Notes under the pieces: model-generated | The model's database searches: none | What the model saw: only the letters and a program-made list of their open reading frames with translations | What the model was told of the DNA's origin: nothing | Program-made: the position numbers and the translations under genes | Part shown: positions 6,161 to 20,077 of the stretch, one piece after another | Layout: each line of letters starts with the position of its first letter | Position numbering within the stretch: the stretch's first letter is position 1 | IMG/VR virus record: IMGVR_UViG_3300005532_000222 | Coordinates: 1-20,699 of that record | Length of the DNA: 20,699 nucleotides | Origin: a virus | Strand: one strand, 5' to 3'

Positions 6161-9100
6161 TCAGAACCGGATCATTACGGTCAGGTCGCTCGCGGTCACG
6201 TCATCCGCCCCGCCTGGCACCGAGGTGACATCAATATTGATTTCGGCGCCCTCATCGATTGGGCCCAGTCCGAAGCCGTCCACACTACCCGATACCGTTG
6301 TCCCATCCGCTATCGTAAGAGGACACAGAATGTTGCCGTTCACTGTCACGTTCAGAGTAACTGCGCCGCCGTGCGGAGCCCGCCCAACCACCGCATAAAC
6401 ATCGCGGATCGCACGTCTCTTGTCGACGAAGAGAGGCGGCACGGCGCTCGTCTGCACCGCGACAATACCCTGTATCTGCAGCGCAATCTGCCCCCCGCCC
6501 AGCGTCCGAACTCCGTTATCCAGAGTGTCCAGAAGATTGCGCCTGCTCACGTCGCTGTTGCCGAATGAGTTCGTCACGAACAGCTCCGCGGCAGCCGCCC
6601 GTATGTGGGGCGCTGTGATGGTGTAGCTGTAATCGCCACTCGCCTCGCTGCCGAAAAAGTTCCGGACGAACGGCAGCACGAAGGTGCTGCTGGCAAGCGG
6701 GTACACCGGTGTTCCTGTCGCGTGCGGGGCCACCTGTGTCCCATAAGCTCCGCGCGTTATTGTCAACCCGCCCGTCGGCGAAATACTGCTGACCTGAACT
6801 AACTCGGATTCAATCTGCATCACCGACGTTCCGCTCGGAATCGCCGGTCCGTTGACGCTCAGGGACGCCGTGTCCGGGGTCAGCGCTGTCGTGACCGCGT
6901 ACTGCGTCGGATAACTGAATTCATCCCAGAAGTGAATCGTAAACGTGCCGGACGTGATCGATGCCGTGTTCGTGAGGCTTGGAAAAGCAATCCCGGCAAC
7001 AACCAGAGTTCCATCTCCGGCCCAGTCCAGCCCGAATATTGGCGCCCCCGGTACGCCGCTGTCCGCTGTCCCGCCCCCCAGAAGATAGCGCGTCACGGGT
7101 GAGACTTCAATCGCACACTCCTCGTCCCGGACATTTGCCGAGCGGCCGCAAATCTCGACGAACGACAGCGCCGTAGGAGGGACGTCAAAGCTGATTGGCC
7201 CCGATGCGCCCGTCGCGCCGAATCGCCATCCGGCTTCAACTACGGCAAACGTGCTGGTTGAGTCCGGCTCCGTGTCCCACGACCCGGTGATGGTCAGCGT
7301 CGATGCCGTATTGCTTGAGATCGTCCGCTCCTGGGCGCCCCCTGTCCCGCCGGTAATCCGCACCAGGTACCCGCTGAACTCATTGACCGTCATCTGCAAC
7401 GCGGAGTTACCAACGGTGGTGCTGCTGTGCGTTTCCGCCGCGGCCTCGGGCGTTAGCTCATAACGCCAATAGAAGTTCGCGTGATCATAGTTCATATCGG
7501 GCGGCGGAACCGCCATGGCGGGAAGCCCCGTGTCCGTGAACGTCGGCGCCGGATGTACGCCTGTGGCTATCTGCAGCAGATCGGCTCCGCTGGTCCCTCG
7601 ATAGACATTGAAGCTCGCCGTGTCCCTCGAGAAACTCATTCCCTGTAACTCAACCGTGTTTGTGCTCGCGCCAGCGGGAATCATGGCCATTACCAGGAAG
7701 GACAGCGGACTTTCGTTGCCCGCCGAATCGACCGCGCTCACGGCGTAATAACGTACCGTGCCGCCGGGCAGTGTGCCGCCCGTTGCGCTCGTCTGCACGC
7801 CAAGGCTCACCAGTGGAATTCCAGCCGTGGATGGCGCTGGCTTCCTCGGCGCCGTAAACGCCGCGGACAACGTGTAGAATTCACTCCCATCCGTCCGCTG
7901 TGTATCCGCCTCTGTAATACCGAATTCCGTGTCGCCCGCTGCGGTTATGACCGACCCGATCAGCGGCCGCGGTATTCCCGTATCGAAAGCCGCCTGGCGC
8001 CTGCCATTGCCGCCGCCCGGACCGTCCCCATACCACTGATCGTCGTGAATCTGCGCGGTTACAATCGCCGTCCGGTAGTTCAGATCAGGTGCAATGGTCA
8101 CCACCCGGAAGAGTTGCCGCGTCCAGTTCTGTTTCGAGTACGTGATCGCGATCAGGTCCCCCGGGTTCAGCGAGACGGCGCGAAAGCTCGTGGAGAACGA
8201 GACGTAGCGGTTGCCCTGAAGCGACTTACTCAGGTACAACGCCGCGACCCGTCCCGCCTGCGCAAAATTCGACAAACCGATGGCGGGCAACGCCGTGGTG
8301 ATCTCCTGCCCGCACAAGGCGGCGTCATCGGCATCGAACATCGAAAGGCTGTCCTGCTGGTACTCATTCAGCTCGTCCTGAAACTCGATGCTCACGAAAT
8401 TCGGCGTATCCGCCATCGATCGCGAGTACACCCGAAGACTCGAGCTCCCGTCCGCGTTTCGAAGAATCCCTGAGATCGCGTTATCGCCGAACTCGTACGC
8501 CGGCCAGCCCGGCCCGGACGCTGCCACGCTGTTCGTGCCTGCCGGCTTCTCTCCCTGCTGGCTTCCAAGCGGACCCTCACAATGCAGTTCCAGCCTTCCG
8601 TCAGGTCCGGTGGCGAAGTATAGGTTGGAGGCAGTTCTGATCCCCCGAATGACGTCGCCAACGCTCCGCCGCGTCGTCAGGAGAAGATTGCACGAGTAAG
8701 CCGGAACACTTGTCGGATTCCCATGCGCGTCCGCTGTCTGCACCGGCGTTGAACAAACCGCTGCGGCTGTTGCGAACGCCCCGGCATGAATCTCCTCCGA
8801 GCTCCATCCGCTCCTGCGCAGAAGGTCGAGCAGCACCCATGCGGGGTTGTTCGTGTATCCGAACTCTGTCGCGTGTCCTGCGGTATCGTACTGTTGCAAC
8901 TGCAAACCCTGAATCAGAATGTCGATATGCGGTAGTGTCGTCCCATCCGAAATTCGGTTCGGCACAACCACCGAAAGATATGCCATGCTGCCGTACGGAT
9001 CGCCGCTGAAATTTCCCTTCCCGTCTGTGTAATCGGGGTCGAAGGTCCCGTCTCGCACCCCGCTGCCGAGCATCGTGAACCAGCCGGTTGCGGTCATGTT

Positions 9101-10066
9101 CGTTCCCGGCTGTCCCGCGGGTATTTCGATGTTGTTCACTACAACCTTCAGCACACCGGAAATATGCCCCAGCCCCAGCAGAACCTCCATGCGGGTCAGG
9201 TTGCCATCGTTACGGGCAAAGACAACCGGCGGAGTGTACCACCCTGTTCCATACGTCAGCGGAACGTAGTCGTTATAGCGAGCCTTGTTGTCACTTACCA
9301 CCGACCAATGATAGGACCGATCGCCATAACTTCTCACCAGAATCGATGACGGTACAAATTCCAGTCCTCCAAATCGCCGCGTTACGCGATTCTGGGTATC
9401 GGAATCCCACATACCGCGCAGCTGGCACGACGCCCTGGTATGGTCACACGACTGAAACGCGGCGCCATTGTCCAGGTTTCCGCACCCACCCGGCACGTCC
9501 GCCGAATATCCGCAGGCGTAATACCGTGAATACGTCCCCTTGCCGCCACCGCTGACCGCCTCCTGCCGCTCCTCCACGCTTGCCGGAAACACCCACGGAC
9601 ACTGCCGCTGAATCCGAACCTGCGGAACGTACGCCCGTTGCAGACTCATGCGATCCGCGAAGCTCAACCGGCAGGTGCTCTCCGTGATCTCCTGGACCGG
9701 GTCCGCGATGCCGGTAAAGACGACCCGCGCGTCCGATGTCGGCGTCCCGGACACAGCATCGGCAAACACGAACGACACCGTGACCCGCGTGCCTTTCCAT
9801 CCATATTCCTGCTCCACCTCCGAGCAGATCCCGTCGGCATTTGCGAGAACCACCGTGAGCCCGGCGGACCCATTGCTGGCCGTGTCCAGCGAGGCTCGCA
9901 GTTGAAACGCGTTGTGCCGCAGCACCCGTTGCACATAAGCCTGGCCCGCCACCGTGATCGCATGCGTACTCCAGTGTTCCGTCGCGCCGCCCGGCAGTGC
10001 AAAGTCGAACAGGAATATCGGCGTATCGCAAATCTCGGCCTGCTTCAGTTCGTCTATCGTCGCCAT
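6161..10066 (-). CDS. Fused tail hub/tip protein: DUF2163 (lambda gpL-like) plus gpJ-like region and FN3/beta domains
   Basis: The frame is open from 10159, but ATG at 10066 is the preferred start. It begins MATIDELKQAEICDTPIFLF, a normal DUF2163 start, and overlaps the upstream gene by 13 bases. This gives 1301 residues. Residues 1-245 match the DUF2163 hub family, with a cysteine set C156, C185, C195, C207 and C214. The FQSCDHTRASC segment followed by RFGGLEFVPSS mirrors the Cys region that holds an iron-sulfur cluster in lambda gpL and GTA hub proteins. Residues about 395-680 resemble gpJ-type tip proteins (NPAWVLLDLLRRSGW, DVIRGIRTASNLYFATGPDGRLEL, LNPGDLIAITY). An FN3-like domain (about 740-850), further beta modules, and a C-terminal jelly-roll-like domain ending in DLTVMIRF follow. 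The protein would close the tail tube and contact the cell. A single chain joining hub and tip is unusual. Confidence 0.78.
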   Translation of the reverse strand: MATIDELKQAEICDTPIFLFDFALPGGATEHWSTHAITVAGQAYVQRVLRHNAFQLRASLDTASNGSAGLTVVLANADGICSEVEQEYGWKGTRVTVSFVFADAVSGTPTSDARVVFTGIADPVQEITESTCRLSFADRMSLQRAYVPQVRIQRQCPWVFPASVEERQEAVSGGGKGTYSRYYACGYSADVPGGCGNLDNGAAFQSCDHTRASCQLRGMWDSDTQNRVTRRFGGLEFVPSSILVRSYGDRSYHWSVVSDNKARYNDYVPLTYGTGWYTPPVVFARNDGNLTRMEVLLGLGHISGVLKVVVNNIEIPAGQPGTNMTATGWFTMLGSGVRDGTFDPDYTDGKGNFSGDPYGSMAYLSVVVPNRISDGTTLPHIDILIQGLQLQQYDTAGHATEFGYTNNPAWVLLDLLRRSGWSSEEIHAGAFATAAAVCSTPVQTADAHGNPTSVPAYSCNLLLTTRRSVGDVIRGIRTASNLYFATGPDGRLELHCEGPLGSQQGEKPAGTNSVAASGPGWPAYEFGDNAISGILRNADGSSSLRVYSRSMADTPNFVSIEFQDELNEYQQDSLSMFDADDAALCGQEITTALPAIGLSNFAQAGRVAALYLSKSLQGNRYVSFSTSFRAVSLNPGDLIAITYSKQNWTRQLFRVVTIAPDLNYRTAIVTAQIHDDQWYGDGPGGGNGRRQAAFDTGIPRPLIGSVITAAGDTEFGITEADTQRTDGSEFYTLSAAFTAPRKPAPSTAGIPLVSLGVQTSATGGTLPGGTVRYYAVSAVDSAGNESPLSFLVMAMIPAGASTNTVELQGMSFSRDTASFNVYRGTSGADLLQIATGVHPAPTFTDTGLPAMAVPPPDMNYDHANFYWRYELTPEAAAETHSSTTVGNSALQMTVNEFSGYLVRITGGTGGAQERTISSNTASTLTITGSWDTEPDSTSTFAVVEAGWRFGATGASGPISFDVPPTALSFVEICGRSANVRDEECAIEVSPVTRYLLGGGTADSGVPGAPIFGLDWAGDGTLVVAGIAFPSLTNTASITSGTFTIHFWDEFSYPTQYAVTTALTPDTASLSVNGPAIPSGTSVMQIESELVQVSSISPTGGLTITRGAYGTQVAPHATGTPVYPLASSTFVLPFVRNFFGSEASGDYSYTITAPHIRAAAAELFVTNSFGNSDVSRRNLLDTLDNGVRTLGGGQIALQIQGIVAVQTSAVPPLFVDKRRAIRDVYAVVGRAPHGGAVTLNVTVNGNILCPLTIADGTTVSGSVDGFGLGPIDEGAEINIDVTSVPGGADDVTASDLTVMIRF

Positions 10067-10860
10067 GGCGTCTGCCCCGTGGTTCTGATCCGCAACGCGC
10101 ACCGGTAAACTCCCGGCGCAGTTGCCGTCATCTGCAATTCGTCCTGGTCGAATCGGCAATTCTCATACACACCACCGCTGATTGAGGTCCGCTTATACGT
10201 GCCCACCGCGGGTTGCGCCTCCACTTGTGCTCCGAATACCTGCACCTGCGCGCCACTGGGCACTTGAATTCCGAACGCGACACCGTCTCCGCCCGAAACG
10301 GCTCCCGACATCGCCGAGCGCCTCCATGATCCCGTCGTGATCACCTCATCCCGAAGCGTCGCTCCGTTGCAGCTCTGCGTCAGCCAAACCGTTTGTGGGA
10401 CATCAGACCGGACATACACGCTCAGGCAGTACCGATAACCACCGGGACCGTTGATCTGTTGCGAAACCGCCTGGCTCGCTTGCGCCGTGTTGGTCATTGT
10501 CATCCCCGCCGTGCCCCCGAAAGGATCTGCCGCGCCGGGGGTAATCCGGAGCAGCGGTCCCGGCGCCCAGCACGATTGCGTGAAATCCTCACTCCAGGCC
10601 AGTAGATTGTCGGCGGCATCAAGCATCGTGAATGTCTTCAGCCCGCCCCGCGTCTGCTCAAAAAATCCCTGTAATGTCTGGCGCTCGCATTCGGCTAATC
10701 CCGTGTAAGTCAGATTCCACGTGATTCCCGTAGCCGGCGCGTCACTCAGCATGGCCTGGCTGCCGTCCATAAAGGGGTTCACCACGGCCCGAAAGGTATC
10801 CGTCCATCGCAATGGGAGTTGCGCCACCGCGCCGGTGCTCAGTTGTGGAAAGTAGATCAT
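10054..10860 (-). CDS. Distal tail protein, DUF2460-like, with inserted beta-sandwich (268 aa)
   Basis: The ends of this 268-residue protein repeat the neighbouring upstream protein. Residues 1-85 (FPQL, MDGSQ, ERQTLQGFFEQTRGG, FTMLDA) align with its first 85 residues, and 230-263 (YENCRFDQ, ALRIRTTGQ) align with its last 33 (YANCSFDQ, TLMIRTNGQ). Between them, about 86-229 is an extra domain with LAWSEDFTQSCW, YCLSVYVRSD and AQVEAQPAVGTYKRTS. This is the pattern of the carbohydrate-binding-like beta-sandwich found in many phage tail proteins (SEDF...W at the start, AQVE...Y..T at the end). It likely forms part of the distal tail ring, with the insert projecting outward. The start ATG lies one base after the previous stop, so translation is coupled. 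Confidence 0.68.
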   Translation of the reverse strand: MIYFPQLSTGAVAQLPLRWTDTFRAVVNPFMDGSQAMLSDAPATGITWNLTYTGLAECERQTLQGFFEQTRGGLKTFTMLDAADNLLAWSEDFTQSCWAPGPLLRITPGAADPFGGTAGMTMTNTAQASQAVSQQINGPGGYRYCLSVYVRSDVPQTVWLTQSCNGATLRDEVITTGSWRRSAMSGAVSGGDGVAFGIQVPSGAQVQVFGAQVEAQPAVGTYKRTSISGGVYENCRFDQDELQMTATAPGVYRCALRIRTTGQTPWRR

Positions 10861-10861
10861 T

Positions 10862-11224
10862 TTACTGGCCGTTCGTTCTGATCATCAGGGTTGCTCCCCC
10901 GCGGTTAATATCTGTTACCCCCCCGTCCAGGCCTTGCTGATCGAAACTGCAGTTGGCGTATGCTGTCCCGGTGACCGGGTCGGTAAATGCGAAGCGCCCC
11001 GCCATCCCCCCCTGCGCCCGGAAAAACTGCCGGAGTGCCGACAATTCGCCTTCATCCACGCGGTCCAGCTGAATAACCCAGCGGCGGACCGGCTGTCCGT
11101 AGTTGCTGTATCGCTGCTCCGACCCGTCCACAAACCGGAGTATCTCAGTGCTGTATGTCGTCCGGCTCTGGAAAGGATATTGGGCGATCGCTGAAGTTCT
11201 TAATGCGGGAAACGTCATCGCCAT
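10862..11224 (-). CDS. Distal tail protein, DUF2460-like (short form)
   Basis: This 120-residue protein begins FPALRTSAIAQYPFQSRTTYSTEILRF and continues with FVDGSEQRYSNYGQPVRRW, LRQFFRAQGGMAGRFAFTDPVTG and YANCSFDQ. This is the typical string of DUF2460-type tail proteins, whose GTA member (gene 12) forms the distal tail ring. Full-length DUF2460 proteins are nearer 200 residues, so this is a reduced form. It starts 4 bases after the tape measure-like gene; an internal ATG at 11218 is an alternative start. The next gene is its paralogue with an inserted domain. The pair may build a mixed ring or successive rings at the tail end (inference). Confidence 0.7.
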   Translation of the reverse strand: MAMTFPALRTSAIAQYPFQSRTTYSTEILRFVDGSEQRYSNYGQPVRRWVIQLDRVDEGELSALRQFFRAQGGMAGRFAFTDPVTGTAYANCSFDQQGLDGGVTDINRGGATLMIRTNGQ

Positions 11225-11228
11225 CGCC

Positions 11229-11894
11229 CTATAACTCGCCTAATACGTCATTCAGGGCGTGCGACTGTAAAACAGCCGCCCGCACCGCCTGAGCAATCTC
11301 GTCCTTGTGGTCCAGGAACGACCGGCTATCCATGGCGTTAACCTGCACAATGACCGTCCCGCCACCACTCGCGCTCGCGCCCGGCGCTGGCCCCGGTGCA
11401 TTCAACGCCGTCTGCGGTTGTGAATCGGCGCCCGGGTTCAGAGTCGTTTCCGCCAGGGATCGGCCGCTCGAGGCGATCGTCGCCTGCACACCAATCGGCG
11501 CTGGCAGCGAAAATGGTTCGGCAACCCCACTGCTCTGCGAGCTTGACGCTCCGAACAGGCTCATAATCCCGCTCAGCACAGGCGCCAACAGCCCCCCGCC
11601 TCCCAGCAGGCTTTCCGCCGCGCTCTCCACCGCGTTCGCGGCGCCTCCCCCGCGCGCCTGCGTATTCTGTTCCAGCGCCGCGGTATTCTGCTGCATCGCG
11701 GCCGCCTGCGCCTCCTGAAGCGCGCTCAGCCCGCCGATCCCGCTGTTCAGCGTGCTCAGGTTCTGCACCACTTCCTGCGCCGTCCGGGCCAGCAATCCCG
11801 CGGTCGTCGTGTCCGTCTGTGTGATTCCCGGCAAACCCTGCGTAACCTTCTCGGCCGATCCACCAACTCCTTCGTTACTTCTGCTGCTCGCCAT
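11229..11894 (-). CDS. Short tail tape measure-like protein
   Basis: This 221-residue protein occupies the tape measure position, just after the chaperone pair. The N-terminal half is Ala/Gln/Asn-rich helix (about 30-80), a hydrophobic Gly/Leu stretch follows (about 96-115, LLGGGGLLAPVLSGIMSLFG), then a Pro/Gly/Ala/Ser-rich low-complexity linker (120-178). The C-terminal end, VIVQVNAMDSRSFLDHKDEI then a helix, resembles the end of small tape measure proteins such as GTA gene 11. Tape measure proteins fill the tail tube and set its length. Most siphophage members are 600-1500 residues, so this one predicts a very short tail. Its ATG overlaps the end of the chaperone T frame by 20 bases, with a purine-rich GAGAAGAG upstream. 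A head or connector role cannot be excluded by sequence alone. Confidence 0.62.
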   Translation of the reverse strand: MASSRSNEGVGGSAEKVTQGLPGITQTDTTTAGLLARTAQEVVQNLSTLNSGIGGLSALQEAQAAAMQQNTAALEQNTQARGGGAANAVESAAESLLGGGGLLAPVLSGIMSLFGASSSQSSGVAEPFSLPAPIGVQATIASSGRSLAETTLNPGADSQPQTALNAPGPAPGASASGGGTVIVQVNAMDSRSFLDHKDEIAQAVRAAVLQSHALNDVLGEL

Positions 11895-12246
11895 GACTCT
11901 TCTCGCGTGCCTCCTCTGCCCTCAGCGTTAATATCGCGTCCACGACGCGCGCCGGCATCCGCTCTGTTGCGCTTTGTCCGAGCGCGTCCCACACGGCGTA
12001 CGTCTCGAGTAATGAAACGCTCTCCGCGCTGATATAGCTCCGTGGGCACTCCATCGTCCATACGCCATCTCGTGCCCACACCGGCCTGCCTGGCTCGGTG
12101 TCCCGCGCCGCAGGATAGCCGCAGTTTCTTGCTCTCTCCAGACCGTTCTTACGGCATTCGTCGCACCTCCACCCGGTCTGATTTCCATTGCGGTGAAAAT
12201 GGAAGGCGACGATCAGTTTTTTCGCTCGGATTCGCTTAGCGCGCAC
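11875..12246 (-). CDS. Tail assembly chaperone, T-like frame reached by -1 frameshift
   Basis: This frame lies -1 relative to the preceding G-like gene and overlaps it by 34 bases. The only start codon near its beginning is a GTG at 12246 with no convincing ribosome site, so it is probably expressed as the tail of a 243-residue fusion made from ATG 12605 through the slippery AAAAAAC at 12216-12222. The 113 residues after the shift contain four cysteines (C28, C31, C42 and C67 of the open frame; CDEC, NCGYP, MECP), a possible zinc site. A helical region follows (SAESVSLLETYAVWDALG, MPARVVDAILTLRAEE). In lambda the equivalent GT protein links the tape measure to tube subunits during tail assembly. 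Identification rests on position, the overlap and the slippery site, not on recognised homology. Confidence 0.75.
   Translation of the reverse strand: MRAKRIRAKKLIVAFHFHRNGNQTGWRCDECRKNGLERARNCGYPAARDTEPGRPVWARDGVWTMECPRSYISAESVSLLETYAVWDALGQSATERMPARVVDAILTLRAEEAREKSHGEQQK
12158..12222 (-). promoter_or_regulatory. Programmed -1 ribosomal frameshift signal
   Basis: Read on the minus strand, the G-like frame ends CGA AAA AAC TGA. This holds the classical slippery heptamer A AAA AAC (12216-12222) directly before the stop codon (12213-12215). Slipping back one base gives AAA AAA CTG and enters the T-like frame. Immediately downstream, TCGTCGC (12206-12212) pairs perfectly with GCGACGA (12158-12164). 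Enclosed in it is a second 7-bp perfect stem, TTCCATT (12198-12204) with AATGGAA (12183-12189), and an 8-base loop. A stable structure 3-5 bases after the slip site is the expected stimulator. Confidence 0.85.
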
Positions 12247-12605
12247 TGCGCCTTGACTGCTGCTGCTATTTCGCGGGCCAGCCCTTCCGGTCCATCCGAG
12301 ATCAGCAGGTCCGTCGTCGCCGGGGCGCCGTCAATCGTCAGCCCTTCCATCCATATGAGCCCCCAGCGAATGTATGTCGACTCGATCTCCAGCGCCATCG
12401 CGGCAGCTTGCAGCCGGTCCTCTGTCGAATCCCCCGCGGCGTGAAATTCCGCCTGTCGCGACAGCTCGCGCACTCGGCGAATCAGCTCATTCCGGCGCCC
12501 TAAAGACATGCGCCGAACTGCGAACCGTACGCCAGGCACGGTCTGCGCTTCCACTTCGACACTGCTCCTCCAGTTCCCCTCAGGCAAACCCAATGTACAG
12601 CTCAT
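12213..12605 (-). CDS. Tail assembly chaperone, G-like
   Basis: The frame is open from 12626, but ATG at 12605 has the good ribosome site GGGAGG 8 bases upstream, giving 130 residues (MSCTLGLPEGNWRSS...). The start overlaps the tube gene by 26 bases. Residues about 25-60 hold a basic helix (VRRMSLGRRNELIRRVRELS) and the rest is mostly helical, including the IRWGLIWMEGL segment. The gene sits between tail tube and tape measure, exactly where G/GT chaperones lie in siphophages and where gene 10.1 lies in GTAs. Its end carries the slippery site. Most ribosomes should stop here to make the G form, and a minority should continue into the T frame. The function is assigned from context. Confidence 0.75.
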   Translation of the reverse strand: MSCTLGLPEGNWRSSVEVEAQTVPGVRFAVRRMSLGRRNELIRRVRELSRQAEFHAAGDSTEDRLQAAAMALEIESTYIRWGLIWMEGLTIDGAPATTDLLISDGPEGLAREIAAAVKAQCALSESERKN

Positions 12606-13749
12606 CGTTCGCGCCTCCCTGCGCACGGCTGTTCTGAAACTTCCACTGCAGCCTGCGCTGTCCGTCGTCGTACGAGGGCACTTCCGGCACTACGCTCTTC
12701 AGGTAAATGCCCATAAGCTGACCCTGCTGCTGCCCGAGCTGCAGCATGATGCTGATCGGCGACCTCTGCCGCGCTGCCTGATACAACGAAGTAACACCTG
12801 CATCGTCCTGCGCGAACAGGCTTAGCGTCGCGCTGATCGTGCGCGCCCCCGGCGAGATCCCTCGCGCCAGAGTGAACCCGAACTCCTGATCGCGTAACTC
12901 CAGATCGTTGTCCACCGTGATCTGCGCCGACGTAACCGTGAACGCCTGCCAGGGTATAACTCCCATCCATGCCTGCCCAAGGTTCCCCGCCACCAGCGAG
13001 TACGTCACCATACTCGGCGCCGGTTCCGCCGGCAACTCGCTCAGCCCCGCCTGCCCCGCTTCGAAGCTCCCGCTGTCCACCAGGTCCGCCGCGCTGCCTC
13101 GAAATGTCAGGTCATGAAAATCGCCATTGACCCCGATCGTCATCCTGCCGATCGCCGCCCCGCTCACCACCCGTTGCACCGCCGTGCCGGGACTCCAGTA
13201 GTCGAACATCGTCGCGCTCGGCAGCTCTTCAGCCGGCATATAGGTCATGGTTGGCGAACCAGCCGCGCCTGCCGCCACCGCGCCCGTGAATGGGGCATTG
13301 ATCTGCACCGCCGACTCGCTCGCAATGGCGGAAACGAATCGTATCTCGCCCCCCCAGCACACTGCCTGCCCAGGGATCAGCCCGTGCGCGCTCGAAAACG
13401 TCACCGTGCTGCCGTTAACCGACGCGACCGGCTTGCCGCCCCAGGCCAGCGGCGTCCCGCCAAGCGCCGCCTGCACCAGCGCGCCGTGTGGCGGCGCCTG
13501 CGTCGTATCGCCCCATGAGCACAAATAGCTGCGCAGCTCGAAATCCACGCTCCGCCGGACTCCACTGACTTCCCCCATGTACGTTCTGGTGCCGGTCTTG
13601 TCCTTCCGGTGCGGCCGCTGAAGCTTGTAGCTCGTGCTCAGGCTTACCAGCGGCGTCAGGTTCGCCGCGCTGACGCTCGCGGCGATACCGTAGGCCGGCT
13701 CCACTCCCACATAAAGGCGATTATTGTTTGACGAAATATATGATGCCAT
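12580..13749 (-). CDS. Major tail tube-like protein
   Basis: This 389-residue, beta-rich protein follows the putative tail terminator and precedes the chaperone pair, the standard place for the tube subunit. It starts SYISSNNNRLYVGVEPAYG, a motif common in tube proteins (the subunit introduced with its reference to a starting or binning value). It has two halves. About 1-95 and 195-389 carry tube-like strands (RRSVDFELRSYL, GRMTIGVNGDFHDLTFRG, ITVDNDLELRDQEFGF). A middle region (about 100-180: SVNGSTVTFSSAHGLIPGQAV, VQINAPFTG) looks like an inserted beta domain that could decorate the tube. The ribosome site GGAGAGGAA sits directly before ATG 13749. Length is above that of the smallest tube proteins, consistent with the insert. 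No membrane segment or signal is present. Confidence 0.72.
   Translation of the reverse strand: MASYISSNNNRLYVGVEPAYGIAASVSAANLTPLVSLSTSYKLQRPHRKDKTGTRTYMGEVSGVRRSVDFELRSYLCSWGDTTQAPPHGALVQAALGGTPLAWGGKPVASVNGSTVTFSSAHGLIPGQAVCWGGEIRFVSAIASESAVQINAPFTGAVAAGAAGSPTMTYMPAEELPSATMFDYWSPGTAVQRVVSGAAIGRMTIGVNGDFHDLTFRGSAADLVDSGSFEAGQAGLSELPAEPAPSMVTYSLVAGNLGQAWMGVIPWQAFTVTSAQITVDNDLELRDQEFGFTLARGISPGARTISATLSLFAQDDAGVTSLYQAARQRSPISIMLQLGQQQGQLMGIYLKSVVPEVPSYDDGQRRLQWKFQNSRAQGGANDELYIGFA
12614..12619 (-). promoter_or_regulatory. Ribosome binding site that sets the G-like chaperone start
   Basis: GGGAGG lies 8 bases before ATG 12605, inside the last codons of the tube gene. It favours 12605 over the upstream in-frame codon at 12626. 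Confidence 0.75.
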
Positions 13750-13757
13750 TTCCTCTC

Positions 13758-14249
13758 CTACTTACTTACATCCACCGCAATCACGATCCGCGCGCTCTGC
13801 AGAAAGTTCTTACCGCCGTGCTTTACCGCCCCGAAAGTTACTTCGTAGCCGCCGTTGTACAGCGCTCCGCCGCCCCAGTCTCCACGATTGGCGTCCAGCA
13901 CCGCCGTAACCGCCTCGACGCACCCGTGAAGCTGATCCTCGATACCGTCCAGCCGGTCCTGCGTAACCAGTGCTTCCACCGTCACCTCCGCCTGCCCGGA
14001 AAAGGTCCGAAACTTCTCCCGCAGTGTGTTTGCAACCTTGCTGCACGACACGCGAAATAACGGATAGTGCGCGCCTACGCTCTTTTCCGCCAGCTCGGCG
14101 GCCACGTTGCCGCCCATCACCTGCCCCGCCGAAAGCGCCGGTATCGCGATTCCGCAACCGCTGGCCACCTGCGCCCCCGCGGCGCCAAGATTCGCCGCGA
14201 GCAGGCTCCTCACCTTTCCGCCAACCTGACTTGCTACCAGAGCCATCAT
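13758..14249 (-). CDS. Putative tail terminator/tail completion protein
   Basis: This 163-residue protein lies between a connector-like gene and the tube gene, where siphophages encode the tail terminator (lambda gpU type). It has an N-terminal Ala/Gly-rich stretch, then AELAEKSVGAHYPLFRVSCSKVANTLREKFRTFSG and alternating strands ending YEVTFGAVKHGGKNFLQSARIVIAVDVSK, a mixed alpha/beta pattern suited to that fold. The first ATG (14249) overlaps the previous stop as ATGA. A second ATG at 14246 has better spacing from GGAGG and may be the real start. I did not recognise a named family, so the role is inferred from position and secondary-structure pattern. Confidence 0.5.
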   Translation of the reverse strand: MMALVASQVGGKVRSLLAANLGAAGAQVASGCGIAIPALSAGQVMGGNVAAELAEKSVGAHYPLFRVSCSKVANTLREKFRTFSGQAEVTVEALVTQDRLDGIEDQLHGCVEAVTAVLDANRGDWGGGALYNGGYEVTFGAVKHGGKNFLQSARIVIAVDVSK

Positions 14250-15022
14250 CCCCTCCGCAGTCTTTGGTCGTTCACGATCCAGCGGTCCGCCGCCTGACCC
14301 GTTCCAGGTTGAACACCCCCCGATGTCAGCGGCATTGGTTGTATCCAGCTATTGCCCACCGGCAGCGCGGCGGTGTTCTGCTGGCTCAGGTCGTCTGCCT
14401 GCGGGCCCGCGTATACGTTCCAGCCCACGATCCCGTCGGGACCGGCCCCCGGCGAAATGACGGCCTGCGTGCTGTCTGTAAGTGCGATCGCCGCGGGATC
14501 GCTGCACACTCCCTCGCCCCCGTCAGCTGTTACCCACGAGGTCCCGAAATAGTAAGTTCCCGGCTGCGAGGTGCCCGTCACCGTTGTTATTGCCGGTGCT
14601 GCCGGCCTGGGAGCGGGTCTGCAAACCAGGCCGACGCCTGTCTTCAGATAGGCTCGCTTCGCTTCTCCCTGCATCCGGTCGTAGTTGGCCCACTTCCCCT
14701 GATACCGGTCGTTCAGCTGGTTGTCATACGCGTCCCGAAACACGAACGCAAGCGTGCGTAACGTGTGCCACCGGCGCAGTATGTCCGTGACGACCACGTC
14801 TCCCACCCCCAAAGACCTTCGCGGCGAGATGCCCACGGACGGCTCTGCGCCGCGTTCCGTCTCGAGCAGGAACCGCAGCAGCTCCGCCGCAATCTCGCTT
14901 TGCGCCAGTTGCAGCTTGGCCGAGGTGTCGATCCCCTCCGTGCTCGCAACATCCAGGATCGATGTCTCATAGTTCATGAGATCCACGATCCCGCTGATCG
15001 GACCATCGTTGAACAGTGCCAC
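14246..15022 (-). CDS. Head-tail connector-like protein with C-terminal FN3-like domain
   Basis: This protein has 258 residues. The first 135 are mainly helical (DTSAKLQLAQSEIAAELLRFLLETERG, DILRRWHTLRTLAFVFRDAYDNQLNDRYQGKW), as in adaptor proteins that bind under the portal. After a Pro-rich linker (136-144), residues about 145-235 form an FN3/Ig-like domain (GTYYFGTSWVTADGGEGVCSDP, GIVGWNVYAGPQADDLSQQ). The hub protein of this same cluster carries a domain of the same pattern at its residues 740-850. It lies 8 bases after a small hypothetical gene and overlaps the next gene by ATGA. The connector role is inferred from gene order and the helical N-terminal part. The FN3-like part is likely exposed on the particle surface. 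Confidence 0.55.
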   Translation of the reverse strand: MALFNDGPISGIVDLMNYETSILDVASTEGIDTSAKLQLAQSEIAAELLRFLLETERGAEPSVGISPRRSLGVGDVVVTDILRRWHTLRTLAFVFRDAYDNQLNDRYQGKWANYDRMQGEAKRAYLKTGVGLVCRPAPRPAAPAITTVTGTSQPGTYYFGTSWVTADGGEGVCSDPAAIALTDSTQAVISPGAGPDGIVGWNVYAGPQADDLSQQNTAALPVGNSWIQPMPLTSGGVQPGTGQAADRWIVNDQRLRRG

Positions 15023-15030
15023 GCCGCGCC

Positions 15031-15357
15031 TCAGTCCTGCGTCCCGGGCCGCACCGCGTTCCGAATCGCCTTCAAATCCTGTTCCGAGAGCACCCCGCCC
15101 TGGACGCTCGCCTGCTCACGCCGCCGCGCCTGCTGCCAGCGCTTCTGCTGGGCCTTTTGGAACTCTTCGCGCTCCGCCTCGCTCGCCAGACGCGCGCGAC
15201 CCTCCACCACCATCCGCGCGGCCAGGTCGCGACGCGCTTCGGTCATCCGCCCCGCCGTCCCGCCGTCTCCGGTTTCCAGGCTCACAATCACCGTGTGCTC
15301 GTCCGCTATGTCCGCTTCCGTATTGCGTATCTTCTGGTAATAAGCTCGTAAGTCCAT
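15031..15357 (-). CDS. Small hypothetical phage protein (108 aa)
   Basis: I do not recognise this 108-residue protein. It starts MDLRAYYQKIRNTEADIADEHTVIVSLETGDGG, then has a long charged helix with many Arg, Glu, Gln and Ala (about 40-90). It ends in LSEQDLKAIRNAVRPGTQD. A GAGGAGA ribosome site lies 8 bases before ATG 15357. It is the first gene after the coat protein and its stem-loop, and it precedes the connector-like gene by 8 bases. A head-completion or decoration role is possible by position only. No membrane segment, signal peptide or cysteine motif is present. Confidence 0.6.
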   Translation of the reverse strand: MDLRAYYQKIRNTEADIADEHTVIVSLETGDGGTAGRMTEARRDLAARMVVEGRARLASEAEREEFQKAQQKRWQQARRREQASVQGGVLSEQDLKAIRNAVRPGTQD

Positions 15358-15382
15358 CGCTGTCTTCTCCTCAAAAATCGAA

Positions 15383-15404
15383 AGGGCGGCATTTCTGCCG
15401 CCCT
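15383..15404 (-). terminator. Stem-loop with T-rich tail after the coat gene (terminator/attenuator)
   Basis: A perfect 9-bp stem, AGGGCGGCA with TGCCGCCCT, and a 4-base loop lie 27 bases after the coat stop. On the minus strand it is followed by TTTCGATTTTT. This is an intrinsic-terminator shape. Since essential tail genes follow in the same direction, partial termination that keeps coat mRNA high and tail mRNA lower is the likely role; it may also protect the 3' end of the coat message. Confidence 0.7.
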
Positions 15405-15431
15405 GTTATGCTGCGTCGCTCGGTCCTTCAG

Positions 15432-16343
15432 CTACGAAAGCAGCTGCACGCCGAAGTTATTCCGCAGCACGCCGCACCCGTACAGCACGTCCACCGTGAA
15501 CTGCTGAGCCAGCGTGTTGGGTTGATAACTCATCACCACGCGCAGGCCGAAATTGCCCATCTCCGCGTACTCGGCGATCGCGCCCGTACCCGGCAGCGGC
15601 TGAGGCAGCCGGCGCACAACCAGACCCATCGCATCCTTCGCGAACGCCAGATTGTGCGTGGTCGCCGGAGAGCTGCCGGTCTTCGGAACGAACTGCGAGC
15701 GGAAAATGAAGAAGTCCTTCATCTTTCCGACCGACCCGTCCACCAGAGCCCTCAGGCCTGCCTCGCCCGCTGAATAGAACTCGCTGAAGCGCTGAATCTG
15801 CCGCAGCGCCGAGTACGACGTCGAGTCCACCACCAGGTACTTCGCCGCGCTCGCCGGCACCTTCGACTGGAACAGCGCCGTCTCCGCCGCGTCCACCGCT
15901 TCTTCGCTGATCGGCGTCCCCGGCGCCCCCACCGCGCTGTTGGCCGTGAACTGAGCATAAAGGCTCAGCAGATCCGATTCGATCTTCTCCGCCAGCGCGA
16001 TTACCGCCGGTTGCATGTACAGCTTCAGCAGGTCCGGAACGGCCAGCACCTTGGTCACGTCCGGAATCTGGAACGTCGCCTCCGCGTGCGTGTTGAGAAC
16101 GATCTGCGCGTTCCCCAGATTCGGATTCTGCGGCTGCACCGTGTTGCCTTCGGCAATGTTATTCGCCACCATCACCGGCGGAATCGGCACGTTGATCGTA
16201 TCGCCCGCCCGCGCCAGAATCGGCTCGTAGTCACGGTTCACCAGGTTGCCCATCACCAGATTGCCCATCAGCGCGGGCAGAGCGTCCACGGCAACCAGCT
16301 TCACGATCGCATTCGCGATATTTGCTGATGTAATTGTCGCCAT
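15432..16343 (-). CDS. Major capsid protein, P22 coat-like
   Basis: This 303-residue protein begins MATITSANIANAIVKLVAVDALPALMGNLVMGNLVNRDYEP and continues with AGDTINVPIPP, ATFQIPDVTKVLAVPDLLKLYMQPAVIALAEKIESDLL, AAKYLVVDSTSYSALRQIQRF and ALVDGSVGKMKDFFIFRSQFV. It ends GLRVVMSYQPNTLAQQFTVDVLYGCGVLRNNFGVQLL. This is the pattern of the P22 gene 5 coat family (HK97 fold without proteolysis). P22 itself is 430 residues; shorter relatives such as this lack part of the inserted domain. It follows a scaffold-like gene and no protease gene is present, as expected for this coat type. The ribosome site AAGGAG lies rather far upstream (16362-16367). A stem-loop follows the stop. Confidence 0.87.
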   Translation of the reverse strand: MATITSANIANAIVKLVAVDALPALMGNLVMGNLVNRDYEPILARAGDTINVPIPPVMVANNIAEGNTVQPQNPNLGNAQIVLNTHAEATFQIPDVTKVLAVPDLLKLYMQPAVIALAEKIESDLLSLYAQFTANSAVGAPGTPISEEAVDAAETALFQSKVPASAAKYLVVDSTSYSALRQIQRFSEFYSAGEAGLRALVDGSVGKMKDFFIFRSQFVPKTGSSPATTHNLAFAKDAMGLVVRRLPQPLPGTGAIAEYAEMGNFGLRVVMSYQPNTLAQQFTVDVLYGCGVLRNNFGVQLLS

Positions 16344-16410
16344 ACTCTTTGCTTCTTCTTTCTCCTTGTTTCTTTGTTGCGGCCCGGGCTTCCCCGCCCC
16401 GCACTTTCGG

Positions 16411-16989
16411 TTACAGCCCCCGCAGGGTCTGCGAAGCGAGCCGCGAGATTTCCTGCCGCACCCGCTCCAGTTCTTCCGGATTCATCCCCGGTCGGATTTT
16501 GTCCAGATCGAATCCGGACGGCGCCGGCCCGCTCTTCTGCGCCGGCGTCATTCCCGAGCCCCCGCTGATCCTTGCCGGCAGCAGCTCGGGGTTCTCGTTC
16601 ACGAAGTTGGTCAGAAAGTCTTTCAGCCCAACCTCGCCCTGTGGTCCGCGCGCCACCAGTCGGCCATCCTCGCCGCGAACCACATCGTCCCTGACCGCGC
16701 GAAACGCCAGGTCGACCTTGGAAACCCCCAGCCGCTGCAGTTCCGCCCGGATCAACGCGTTCCGGTCCGCCTCCTCGGCCGCCAGCCGCGCCTTCACGTT
16801 CTCCTGAATCAACTCGTTCACACGGGTCTCGAGTTGTTCGCGGCGCCGCCGCTGCTCCACCAGTTCCGCTTTGTAAGCCGGCTCTGCCTTCTGGCGCTGC
16901 GCCTCCACAAATTCGTCGATCACCCCGCGCACCACCGCTCTTAGGTCCGGCGCGGCCGTCTTCTCCTGCCTTGTCTCGTTTGCTTCCAT
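16411..16989 (-). CDS. Scaffold-like protein (192 aa)
   Basis: The frame is open from 17040, overlapping the portal end, but ATG at 16989 has a perfect AAGGAGAG ribosome site 2 bases upstream and is taken as the start. The 192-residue protein is highly charged. A long coiled-coil-like helix spans about 14-90 (VVRGVIDEFVEAQRQK, RRRREQLETRVNELIQENVKARLAAEEADRNALIRAEL). A short folded middle follows (GVSKVDLAFRAVRDDVVRGEDGR), then LKDFLTNFVNENPELLP, a Gly/Ser/Pro linker and a C-terminal helix (PEELERVRQEISRLASQTLRGL). Position between portal and coat, the coiled coil and the C-terminal helix all fit an internal scaffolding protein that guides coat assembly and then leaves. Confidence 0.75.
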   Translation of the reverse strand: MEANETRQEKTAAPDLRAVVRGVIDEFVEAQRQKAEPAYKAELVEQRRRREQLETRVNELIQENVKARLAAEEADRNALIRAELQRLGVSKVDLAFRAVRDDVVRGEDGRLVARGPQGEVGLKDFLTNFVNENPELLPARISGGSGMTPAQKSGPAPSGFDLDKIRPGMNPEELERVRQEISRLASQTLRGL

Positions 16990-16991
16990 GA

Positions 16992-16999
16992 CTCTCCTT
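16992..16999 (-). promoter_or_regulatory. Ribosome binding site that sets the scaffold start
   Basis: AAGGAGAG lies 2 bases before ATG 16989. It favours this start over the open frame's upstream codon at 17040 and removes the apparent overlap with the portal gene. Confidence 0.85.
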
Positions 17000-17017
17000 A
17001 TTCCGGTGCGCCGGCCT

Positions 17018-18442
17018 TCAGCCCTCGACGCTGCCTTCAATCTCGGCGGCGATCCGGTCTTTTGTTTCCTGCCTGCTGTCGCACAGATACTTCAGCGCCA
17101 GCTTCTTGTACACCTGCTTGCGCAGCGTCGCCGATTCCATCCCCAGACCCAGCAGCGCCTTCGCGTCCGCCAGTTCCGTGCTGAAATCCCCAATGTCGAA
17201 CTCGTCCATTCCTGTTACTTCCACCGTCAGCCCGTCCTCCCGGGCTTCGTTCACGGCGCGCAGCACGCGCTTCATCGCCTCCTTTACCGCGTCGCCGTAC
17301 GCCCGCAGCACCTCCTCCGTGATCGCGAAATCCCGCTGTTTGCTCAGCCCCGACTGCGAGCCCGGACCGCCCAGCGATCCCCCCGCCTGCGATACGTAGC
17401 AAACGCGGTATATCTCCTCCTGCAGCCGCTGCAGGTTATCCGCGGCTATCTGGTAGACCTTCCCCTCCGGCTCCGTCCATCCGAAACGGTCCTGCGGACC
17501 AAGTTGGATGTAGTAGGATTCCCCCACCATCTGGTTCCACTCGCGCTCCGAGTAAACCACCGGCATTGCGAACAGTCCCATGGTCAGCGCCCACGACAGC
17601 GCATTGGATTTGTTCAGATGTTCCAGCTGCAGTAGCCCGCACCGGTTCATCAGCCACAACCCCTCCCGAGCATCCACGTCGATAACCGGCACGCGCCGCA
17701 GCTTCGCCAGTCCGTGCCGTCCCGCGTCAACCAGTTCCACCGCGCCGGTTGTCGTCTCCGTCCACGGAAGCATGCCGCCCAGCTGCGCCGCCTCTGCGTG
17801 CCGGTAAATCCGGAAGCACTCCTTGTCGAAGTACGCCCATTTCGTCTCCCGGATCCATTCCGCGTCTTCGACCCGCGCTTTTCGCAGCGCCGTTGTCCGC
17901 AGCACGACCCACTCATAACCGCCGTGCTCGTCGTAGCTCCAGTTCGTCAATTCCTCGGGAGTGAACGCCGACAGATAGGCTCGCGAGACCCCTTCCGCAT
18001 CCTCCTGCGCCCGCGACTCCACCCCGCCGGCGTGTCGCGGAAAATCAAGCAGCACGTGGCTCTTCCCATACACCAGCACCTCGGTAAACCGCTTCCGGAA
18101 AAACTCGGTGAGGCTCGTCCCTCGGACATCGCAGTCTCCAATGAACTGCGCCAGAAATCGCCGCGCGTTGTCGTTAGCGCCGTCGAACAGGATCACCGGC
18201 TCACGCCGGAACAGCGTCGCCGTGTACCAGTCCACAATCGAACCGGCGTAGTTCTCATAAAAGAAATGTCCCAGCCTCTCCCCGTAAACTTCTCCGGGCT
18301 CCTTCTGCCTCCGGATCAGATACCGGTCGGCATTCGCCCGCAGTTGTTCTCCACCCGAATAAAGATCCCGGTAAGTTCTCCACGTTTGAGCCCGGCTCCG
18401 GTACTCCGGATGCTCTCGAATGATCTCCGTCGCGTTGTCCAT
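17018..18442 (-). CDS. Portal protein, DUF4055-like
   Basis: The frame allows a GTG at 18448, but ATG at 18442 is correctly spaced from GAAAGG, giving 474 residues (MDNATEIIREHPEYRSRAQTW...). Family-like segments are RTYRDLYSGG, YGERLGHFFYENYAGSIVDWYTATLFRREP, FFRKRFTEVLVYGKSHVLLDFPR and AYLSAFTPEELTNWSYDE. A later helical stretch, LMNRCGLLQLEHLNKSNALSWALTMGLFAMPV, matches the portal crown/wing pattern of DUF4055 proteins. Residues about 355-400 (GGSLGGPGSQSGLSKQRDFAITEEVLRAYGDAVKEAMKRVLRAV) are the long portal stem helices. The portal forms the dodecameric DNA gate at one capsid vertex. It lies between terminase and scaffold genes. Confidence 0.85.
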   Translation of the reverse strand: MDNATEIIREHPEYRSRAQTWRTYRDLYSGGEQLRANADRYLIRRQKEPGEVYGERLGHFFYENYAGSIVDWYTATLFRREPVILFDGANDNARRFLAQFIGDCDVRGTSLTEFFRKRFTEVLVYGKSHVLLDFPRHAGGVESRAQEDAEGVSRAYLSAFTPEELTNWSYDEHGGYEWVVLRTTALRKARVEDAEWIRETKWAYFDKECFRIYRHAEAAQLGGMLPWTETTTGAVELVDAGRHGLAKLRRVPVIDVDAREGLWLMNRCGLLQLEHLNKSNALSWALTMGLFAMPVVYSEREWNQMVGESYYIQLGPQDRFGWTEPEGKVYQIAADNLQRLQEEIYRVCYVSQAGGSLGGPGSQSGLSKQRDFAITEEVLRAYGDAVKEAMKRVLRAVNEAREDGLTVEVTGMDEFDIGDFSTELADAKALLGLGMESATLRKQVYKKLALKYLCDSRQETKDRIAAEIEGSVEG

Positions 18443-18449
18443 TGACACA

Positions 18450-18455
18450 CCTTTC
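18450..18455 (-). promoter_or_regulatory. Ribosome binding site that sets the portal start
   Basis: GAAAGG ends 7 bases before ATG 18442 but only 1 base before the in-frame GTG at 18448, so ATG 18442 is preferred. Confidence 0.7.
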
Positions 18456-18489
18456 CCCGCCCCTGTAAAACTGCAAGTGTTTTCGTGAT

Positions 18490-18512
18490 GGGACAGGCCG
18501 CCTAGCCTGCCC
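18490..18512 (-). other. Inverted repeat between terminase and portal genes
   Basis: In the 97-base gap between the terminase stop and the portal start, GGGCAGGC can pair with GCCTGTCCC (one bulged base) around a 6-base loop. A weaker AAAAC/GTTTT stem follows. There is no adjacent T-run, so it is more likely an mRNA processing or stability element than a terminator. Confidence 0.35.
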
Positions 18513-18539
18513 TCCTGCGCCAGCCCCGATTCCGCGGCG

Positions 18540-19841
18540 CTACATAAGCCCGCGCGACTGTGGCCCGAACGGCGCCCTTACCCTGAATTCCTGCCACACC
18601 AGATACCCGAGCGCGTCCGATAAGTGCGTCCGTTGCGAGTCCCGCTCCTTATCCACCACGCTGCTGTCCGGCTTGTAAGTTACCTGCTCGAAATCCTTGA
18701 TCAGTTCTTTGCACTTCGCATCCACGTACAGCGCCGTTTCCCCATCCGCCGATCGCAGCAGAGAGTTCATCATCTGCACCCGATCCTTGACCGGCGGGTT
18801 GCTCGCGCCCTTCGCCAGGCCCCACCTCCGATACCCCGCTTCCCGGAAAAAACGGCGCAGCACGTCATAATCCGAGTTCCCGCAGGTCTGCATTCTCTCC
18901 CCGGAAGCGTCTCCGTAAATCTTCACGCCTGCCTCCCACATTGGGTAGCGGTTATGAAACTCCTCGCATGCCTGCTCCGTGCTCGCCCGGTGCAGAACAA
19001 TCTCGTCCAGCACCTTCACCTCATCCGCGCTTCTCTGCGCGATAACCGAGCTCATGGGGTCCACGTTGAAATCCAGCGCCCACATCAGCGGCAGCACCGG
19101 ATCCGCCTCGGCCTTCGTTACGTTGATCTTTCGGTCGAAGGCGTGGTACACCTGCCCGGCGCTGACATTCAGATAAGCGCCCAGCACTTCCTGCTGAAAG
19201 AACCGCTCGTCGTAGCTGCTCTTCAGCCGCTCGTAGTAATCCGGAATCTGATCGAGTAAGAACCGGTTCTCGTAAGCCGGCGCCAGAATCGCTTCGTAAC
19301 CTTCCACCGGCTCCTGTATGAAGCGCTTGTATACCCAGTCGAAGCCTTTCGGCGTCCACACCGCGCATCCACACAGCTTTTTCGCCTTGGGATCTCGCAA
19401 TCGCCCTTCGAGCCTGAGCCACGCCTCTTCCGCCGTGTAAGTCAGCTCGTCAACGGCGAACCACGCCAGGTTCGTGCCGCGCAGCCGCTCGAATTCATCC
19501 AGCGATCGGACCAGGATCTTCGATCGCACCTCATTCAGCGTCAGCAGATTCTCCGCTTTATTGAAGTCATACGGTATCCTGTTCGCGTTCAGAATCTCGA
19601 ACAGCGTGCTCAGTGTTGCGTCTCGCAACATCGGATACGTCGGGGCTCCGATCAGGCCCGGCCTCCCGGGATTCAAATACGCCAGCCGAATCGCCTCCTG
19701 ACAAAGAGCCTGGCTCTTTCCCGACCCGATTGGCCCGGAAAACCCTTTGAAGCGCGCCTTCGAGTTATGGAACTTCTCCTGGGATGGCAGCGGCGCGTAA
19801 CCTATGGTTCGGGTTCGGATGCCTTCTTCGGTTCGCACCAT
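18540..19841 (-). CDS. terL: Terminase large subunit
   Basis: This 433-residue protein is the DNA-packaging motor. The ATPase part has Walker A GPIGSGKS (36-43) and Walker B with catalytic Glu WFAVDE (127-132; D131, E132). A motif III-like segment CAVWTPKGFDWVY follows. The nuclease part shows the three expected acidic sites: D257 in ALDFNVDP, D310 in YGDASGERM and D409 in HLSDALGY. All key residues are intact, so the motor should be active. The N-terminus overlaps the upstream small gene by 40 bases. ATG 19841 or the adjacent GTG at 19838 are the only plausible starts before the ATPase core, and GGAG lies about 11 bases upstream. The protein docks on the portal encoded next and cuts DNA into headful or unit lengths. 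Confidence 0.93.
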   Translation of the reverse strand: MVRTEEGIRTRTIGYAPLPSQEKFHNSKARFKGFSGPIGSGKSQALCQEAIRLAYLNPGRPGLIGAPTYPMLRDATLSTLFEILNANRIPYDFNKAENLLTLNEVRSKILVRSLDEFERLRGTNLAWFAVDELTYTAEEAWLRLEGRLRDPKAKKLCGCAVWTPKGFDWVYKRFIQEPVEGYEAILAPAYENRFLLDQIPDYYERLKSSYDERFFQQEVLGAYLNVSAGQVYHAFDRKINVTKAEADPVLPLMWALDFNVDPMSSVIAQRSADEVKVLDEIVLHRASTEQACEEFHNRYPMWEAGVKIYGDASGERMQTCGNSDYDVLRRFFREAGYRRWGLAKGASNPPVKDRVQMMNSLLRSADGETALYVDAKCKELIKDFEQVTYKPDSSVVDKERDSQRTHLSDALGYLVWQEFRVRAPFGPQSRGLM

Positions 19842-20077
19842 GTCACTCTGATCTCCGTCAGCGGTTCTTCGTCCGCCAGTTCGCGTTCCAGTTGCACAAG
19901 CCGGATGAACTCCGACAAGGTGGGCTTGAAGTCTTTCGCGTCAAGCTTCTCCCTGATCGCTTCCACCACGGCCGAAATCATCTTCCGTCCAAACTGCACG
20001 TTATCCTTCGCCTTCGCCGGCGTTCTCTCGCTCCTCCCCGCCCCATTCCTTTTCTCTTCTGCTTTGTGCCTGCTCAT
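19802..20077 (-). CDS. Small charged protein in the small-terminase position
   Basis: This protein has 91 residues: a basic, disordered-looking first 25 (KAEEKRNGAGRSERTPAKAK), then a helical core (FGRKMISAVVEAIREKLDAKDF, TLSEFIRLVQLERELADEE) and an acidic end. Small terminase subunits bind packaging sites and often carry an N-terminal helix-turn-helix and a helical oligomerisation core. Only the helical core and the location are suggestive here, and no clear helix-turn-helix is visible. ATG 20077 has AAAGGGAG just upstream and would be the first gene of the structural operon. The end overlaps the large terminase by 40 bases, suggesting coupled translation. It could equally be an unrelated regulatory or accessory protein. 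Confidence 0.55.
   Translation of the reverse strand: MSRHKAEEKRNGAGRSERTPAKAKDNVQFGRKMISAVVEAIREKLDAKDFKPTLSEFIRLVQLERELADEEPLTEIRVTWCEPKKASEPEP

Follow-up and report, generated by a model that had tools for sequence, protein, structure and literature searches.

The Structural Gene Cluster of the Window

The window analyzed here, i.e., the whole IMG/VR contig IMGVR_UViG_3300005532_000222 of 20,699 bases, carries a phage structural module on its minus strand. Two overlapping frames in -1 relation to each other, which are referred to below as A and B, are found in this module between the tail tube and tape measure genes. For comparison, 20 genomes were sampled with 13-16 kb on each side of the homologous site, which together with the window gave 21 regions. 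The cluster and the genes next to the overlap are as follows:

6161..20077, minus strand: conserved structural cluster with TerL, portal, scaffold-like, P22-like coat protein, head-tail genes, tail tube, A/B, tape measure, two DUF2460 and J-like genes
12580..13749, minus strand: tail-tube-like protein (phrog_290, E = 7.6e-13), kept in 21/21 regions
12213..12626, minus strand: frame A, tail-assembly-chaperone-like (G-like) protein, 137 aa from GTG 12626 or 130 aa from ATG 12605
11875..12246, minus strand: frame B (-1), T-like CxxC protein, 123 aa, with the conserved part starting from KKL at 12222 (115 aa)
11229..11894, minus strand: short tape-measure-like protein, 221 aa

The coat protein was identified as P22-like with Pfam. 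The tape-measure-like protein was assigned from its position and a weak match to the C-terminal end of the phrog_3779 tape measure (E = 0.0039); a PDB sequence search with it returned nothing useful, and protein clustering placed a homologue at the same site in 17 of the 21 regions. No integrase, replication or lysis gene was recognized in the window with Pfam.

Several other features of the cluster were observed. Downstream of J, at 3440-6157, lies a 905-aa protein with PF23845 (non-contractile tail sheath TIM barrel), whose family is present in only 13 of the 21 clusters. DUF2460 (distal tail) is matched by two neighboring genes, 10862-11224 and 10054-10860, of which only one passes the curated cut-off; the pair represents a duplication that is kept in nearly all relatives. 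Long open frames antisense to the MCP, portal and J genes of the window recur at the same places in many genomes (families f0, f1, and f2), which is probably an effect of codon composition.

Distribution and Inheritance of the Cluster

Of 257 genomes of the host order Bryobacterales (Acidobacteriota), 195 encoded B and 201 encoded the coat protein, nearly always in one copy, and the coat proteins were ~73-85% identical to that of the window. Among 396 genomes sampled across the phylum, B was found in only three, two of which belonged to the same order. The gene order TerL, portal, scaffold-like, coat, head-tail genes, tail tube, A, B, tape measure, two DUF2460 genes and J was kept in all 20 genomes of the synteny sample, TerL being unmatched in one of them (G052). 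As in the window, a Wzt-type ABC ATPase and/or an M24 peptidase was found downstream in 8 of the 20. The distances among the elements followed those among the rpoB genes of their hosts (Mantel r = 0.60, 0/5000 permutations, 19 genomes), and every rpoB clade with support ≥0.99 (four clades) reappeared in the element tree, while a fifth, with support of 0.957, was absent. In the one close pair compared for substitutions, G202 and G206, dN was far below dS (0.001/0.173 for coat and 0.077/0.58 for J) and dN/dS was <0.3 in 12/12 genes, which is indicative of purifying selection. Pfam searches of nine flanking ORFs in the complete genome G165 identified host enzymes and transporters and no integrase or lysis gene. 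The same genome also contains, at ~2.135-2.142 Mb of G165:C1 (L248, L252, and L255), a dense array of tRNA genes, many of which duplicate tRNAs encoded elsewhere in the genome.

Given the synteny, mostly single copy, tracking of rpoB, purifying selection and cellular neighbors without a recognized integrase, the cluster is probably a gene transfer agent (GTA)-like, domesticated element of Bryobacterales. The original prediction, which was made from the window alone, missed this apparent vertical inheritance. We infer that the Bryobacterales cluster forms particles and that these carry host DNA.

Alternatively, the cluster could belong to an ordinary temperate phage family with a very wide distribution in Bryobacterales, which is unlikely and would leave the conclusions on frameshifting below unaffected. 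Hundreds of such contigs are filed as viral in IMG/VR, a few genomes carry 2-3 copies of the coat protein, and some clades of the element tree are absent from the rpoB tree, all of which speak for a phage. A temperate phage family would not, however, readily account for about one copy in ~80% of the genomes of the order and hardly any outside it, for co-diversification with rpoB, for the downstream Wzt and/or M24 peptidase genes common to the window and 8/20 genomes, or for the lack of any recognized integrase, replication or lysis gene in the window and the nine flanking ORFs of G165. GTAs, such as those of Rhodogtaviriformidae (PMC9662315), have been described for other lineages, and a literature search pairing gene transfer agent with Acidobacteria retrieved no report.

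Proteins A and B

With 37 homologues, AlphaFold2 predicted with confidence a mainly helical structure for A with a mean pLDDT of 91.5, and a structure for B with a pLDDT of 87.6. Neither protein has a Pfam or PHROG family, a fold match in the PDB, sequence similarity to known tail chaperones or, when used as queries, any match in the known phage genomes searched; searched in the same way, the coat protein had distant matches only. Weak viral fold matches of A in BFVD included the tail assembly chaperone of Arthrobacter phage Molivia. The site of A and B, between the tail-tube-like and the 221-aa tape-measure-like genes, supports reading them as counterparts of the G and GT products of phage lambda.

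In another acidobacterial genome, which lies outside the order (L164 in G400), a long tape-measure-like frame (>500 aa) was also found to be closely preceded by a distant B-like frame with AAAAAAC. That locus is phage-like, and the B family thus occurs in a conventional tail module too.

Slippery Heptamer and Adjacent Stop Codon

The minus strand at the junction of the two frames reads ...GAG CGA AAA AAC TGA TCG TCG CC..., where the heptamer is in the phase of frame A:

12216..12222, minus strand: slippery heptamer A AAA AAC (A AAA AAC/U in 120/121 dereplicated relatives)
12213..12215, minus strand: TGA stop codon of frame A, directly behind the heptamer (adjacent in 118/121; TGA 86, TAA 27, TAG 5)

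The original prediction of a -1 frameshift joining the tail-chaperone-like A to B was strongly supported by conservation over 121 homologues. Its individual elements were also borne out: A AAA AAC at 12222..12216 abuts the TGA at 12215..12213, the downstream frame of 123 codons (12246-11875) is exactly -1, and the predicted fusion of 243 residues is obtained when A is counted from ATG 12605 (250 from the GTG).

Close relatives of B occur frequently in viral contigs from soil, with 454 confirmed stretches, 80 of which were retrieved. The comparison set, drawn from soil viral contigs and Bryobacterales genomes, consisted of 121 dereplicated homologous loci and included very divergent ones. B was at -1 relative to A in all 121. 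The heptamer was A AAA AAC in 113, A AAA AAU in 7 and broken in 1, and its phase was kept throughout. The codon that provides its first A was of nine kinds (CGA, AGA, GCA, ACA, GAA, ATA, AAA, GTA, and CTA) for R, A, T, E, I, K, V, and L; thus, the base is conserved while the residue changes. The lysine of the heptamer was encoded by AAA in 120/121, compared to 225 of the 788 lysines elsewhere in the same ORFs (AAG in 563). Where the next codon of B had G in place of A as its first base, Leu was always encoded by CTA or TTA (5/5), so that a TAG stop formed. Judged from these codon choices, the conservation of the heptamer exceeds what chance and protein requirements can account for.

We also searched the 121 homologues for loci in which the slip site was broken and both frames were retained as separate genes. 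The only degraded site was that of L112 (G AGA AAC), where stop, frame and pseudoknot were all retained, which makes this locus a test case provided by nature. In three other relatives (L061, L134, and L140), the heptamer was retained and the stop of frame A lay 1, 1 and 45 codons further downstream, respectively.

An internal Shine-Dalgarno stimulator, as in dnaX, was considered and rejected. SD-like motifs were found 6-18 nt upstream in 42/121 relatives, which equaled the mean of the synonymous shuffles (43.7), and Shine-Dalgarno stimulation is thus unsupported.

A Downstream H-type Pseudoknot

Downstream of the heptamer, the following RNA elements were identified, which are listed in the order of transcription:

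12211..12215, minus strand: spacer UGAUC, 5 nt between heptamer and stem 1
12200..12210, minus strand: 5' arm of stem 1, GUCGCCUUCCA
12174..12180, minus strand: 5' arm of stem 2, CAGACCG, inside the hairpin loop
12160..12171, minus strand: 3' arm of stem 1, UGGAGGUGCGAC, with one bulged U
12139..12145, minus strand: 3' arm of stem 2, CGGUCUG, beyond the interval of the original prediction

The predicted frameshift stimulator is an H-type pseudoknot that is formed by stem 1 (S1, 12210-12200/12171-12160) and stem 2 (S2, 12180-12174/12145-12139). Its spacer lies within the 5-9 nt that usually separate a heptamer from its structure (PMC7618472). In its conserved form, the element consists of a 5-nt spacer, a stem 1 pairing GUCGC-N-UUYCA with UGGAR-N'-U-GCGAC and a stem 2 pairing CAGGCC with GGCCUG; the pseudoknot loop is 16 nt in relatives and 19 nt in the window.

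A nested hairpin had been predicted within 12158-12222, and only part of it stood. The outer stem UCGUCGC/GCGACGA is present, and is lengthened to GUCGCCUUCCA/UGGAGGUGCGAC in the minimum-energy fold and in homologues. The inner 7-bp stem UUCCAUU/AAUGGAA was dropped, as it is peculiar to this contig and unconserved. The interval also missed the second half of the signal, where CAGACCG (12180-12174) pairs with CGGUCUG (12145-12139). Covariation over the homologues, which had been proposed as a check on both nested stems, was found in the extended outer stem and in a second stem located elsewhere.

The folding energy of the window sequence by itself was unremarkable (z = -1.9), so that the case for the structure is comparative. 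Synonymous codons were shuffled among the sequences within each alignment column (1000 shuffles), by which every protein and the composition of every column were preserved. In these shuffles, which ignore kinship, a point partly met by the tree count and slid controls given below, the variable pair of S1 had z = 8.6-8.9 and S2 had z = 10.4 (0/1000 for each). In S1, the third base of an Ala codon covaried with that of the codon after Trp (1.4e-13); the pairs seen were C:G, U:A, G:C, G:U and A:U, and where A:A occurred, the A can pair with a neighboring U. In S2, the choice of CAG or CAA for Gln covaried with C or T in Leu (Fisher, 7e-9): CAG was found with CUG 38 times and CAA with UUG 17 times, compared to 4 and 3 mismatched combinations, and GAG was found with CUC in two relatives (L040 and L115). 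On a tree built from A and from that portion of B which lies outside the RNA element, double changes from CAG.CUG to CAA.UUG occurred independently at least five times. By pair counting, 93.6% of the cells were paired, compared to 29-46% in slid controls, and there were 35 double-change cells, compared to 12.1 in shuffles (0/500). The register of S2 was shifted by one base in the group with the PA-type loop, and S2 was weak in the most divergent members.

Proposed Mechanism and Alternatives

Heptamer, adjacent stop and pseudoknot together argue strongly for functional -1 programmed ribosomal frameshifting in the manner of lambda G/GT with a signal of retroviral type, by which A is very probably extended to an A-B fusion with the help of the pseudoknot, in a probably GTA-like cluster. 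Most ribosomes would make A and terminate at the codon directly behind the slip site. A minority would be held up by the H-type pseudoknot 5 nt downstream and undergo a tandem slip on A AAA AAC, in which tRNA-Lys and tRNA-Asn re-pair one base back; the slipped ribosomes would then produce the rarer A-B fusion, as with gpG and gpGT in lambda. If the analogy to this phage applies, A may coat the tape measure and A-B, the less abundant product, may recruit tail-tube subunits, with the slip rate setting the ratio of A to A-B required for tail assembly. We infer the occurrence and rate of slippage, and the roles of A and A-B. In E. coli, slippage on A AAA AAC is less efficient than that on A AAA AAG, which is the best heptamer there (PMC5009743). 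The sampled complete host genome G165 encodes both the UUU and CUU tRNA-Lys, which, if general, may explain why A AAA AAG is unused.

The start of B bears on the alternative in which B is an ordinary separate gene, translated from GTG 12246 or its equivalent with a ribosome site of its own or by coupling to A, and the A-rich stretch is incidental. B had been predicted to lack a good start of its own. This did not strictly hold in the window, where GTG 12246 has AAGG 4 nt upstream as a possible ribosome site, and some ATG, GTG or TTG precedes KKL in the -1 frame of 77/121 relatives. It did hold in the other 44/121, which have none of these codons between the last -1-frame stop and the conserved KKL, yet still keep B and the slip site. 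Moreover, the GTG and AAGG of the window fall on codons for residues of A itself (K-A-Q-C, or K-A-E-C in many relatives), and a separate gene would leave the invariant heptamer, the adjacent stop and the pseudoknot all unexplained. Given the conservation of slip site and stop and the 44 relatives without a start codon, an independent B is inadequate, and we regard it as very improbable. Slippage of RNA polymerase on the run of six A (up to ten in L017), which would join the frames in place of the ribosome, was rejected as exceedingly improbable, as six A are short for productive polymerase slippage and the run, exactly six long in 115/121, keeps the phase of the ribosome and is followed by the adjacent stop and the conserved pseudoknot.

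A nearly unchanged signal in a cluster found once per genome in most Bryobacterales suggests a domesticated particle whose assembly would depend on the slip. We somewhat favor the view that the cassette serves as the assembly switch for an undescribed GTA of Acidobacteriota (Bryobacterales) that co-diversifies with its hosts, and whose tail assembly would depend on slippage at the retrovirus-like A AAA AAC-stop-pseudoknot signal, conserved over a whole order. The conserved and mostly single-copy cluster suggests domesticated phage particles, which may transfer DNA from cell to cell, in a bacterial group that ranks among the most abundant in soil. The ~120 natural variants also provide material for comparing the effects of stop, spacer and pseudoknot on the efficiency of bacterial frameshifting.

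Comparison with Known Systems

The tail assembly chaperone frameshift of lambda G/GT (Levin, 1993; Xu, 2004; described in PMC5009743) resembles the system proposed here in that two frames overlap between the tail tube and tape measure genes and a -1 slip occurs toward the end of the first one, resulting in a short product and a fusion. Between slip site and stop, the sites of SEA-PHAGES have a mean of 26 nt and those of the Xu set a mean of 36 nt (PMC10885494). In contrast to lambda, the heptamer here is A AAA AAC with the zero-frame stop directly adjacent, and A and B lack sequence similarity to the known chaperones. We know of no lambda-type site with a covarying H-type pseudoknot and, to our knowledge, no phage tail-chaperone frameshift has been found with a pseudoknot supported by covariation or with a stop built onto the slip site over a comparable range.

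The signal shares with those of retroviruses and coronaviruses the X_XXY_YYZ heptamer, the 5-nt spacer, a stem 1 of 11 bp and a stem 2 of 6-7 bp, and A_AAA_AAC is among the shiftiest heptamers with mammalian ribosomes (PMC5009743). It differs from them in its bacterial host, its location in tail-protein genes and its loop 1 of 16-19 nt. In the IS3 family, as is proposed here, a -1 slip occurs with a pseudoknot in bacteria; there and in the A_AAA_AAC cluster of IS elements, which we take to be IS1, a transposase fusion is the product. This A_AAA_AAC cluster is a proven case of frameshifting without an established stimulator (PMC4066793). Listeria phage PSA and Lactobacillus phage A2 also have frameshifts in structural genes, and PSA has a pseudoknot in its capsid gene and a tail-gene slip beside a stop codon. 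In contrast to the cassette described here, PSA shifts to +1, and the products in these phages are virion components instead of chaperones.

Compared with RcGTA and other GTAs as they are described, the candidate cluster differs in its Acidobacteriota host and P22-like coat protein (Pfam). In common with these GTAs, it appears to be a vertically inherited head-tail cluster in mostly single copy, under purifying selection and with no linked integrase recognized, and the tape measure of RcGTA is very short, as is the one found here.
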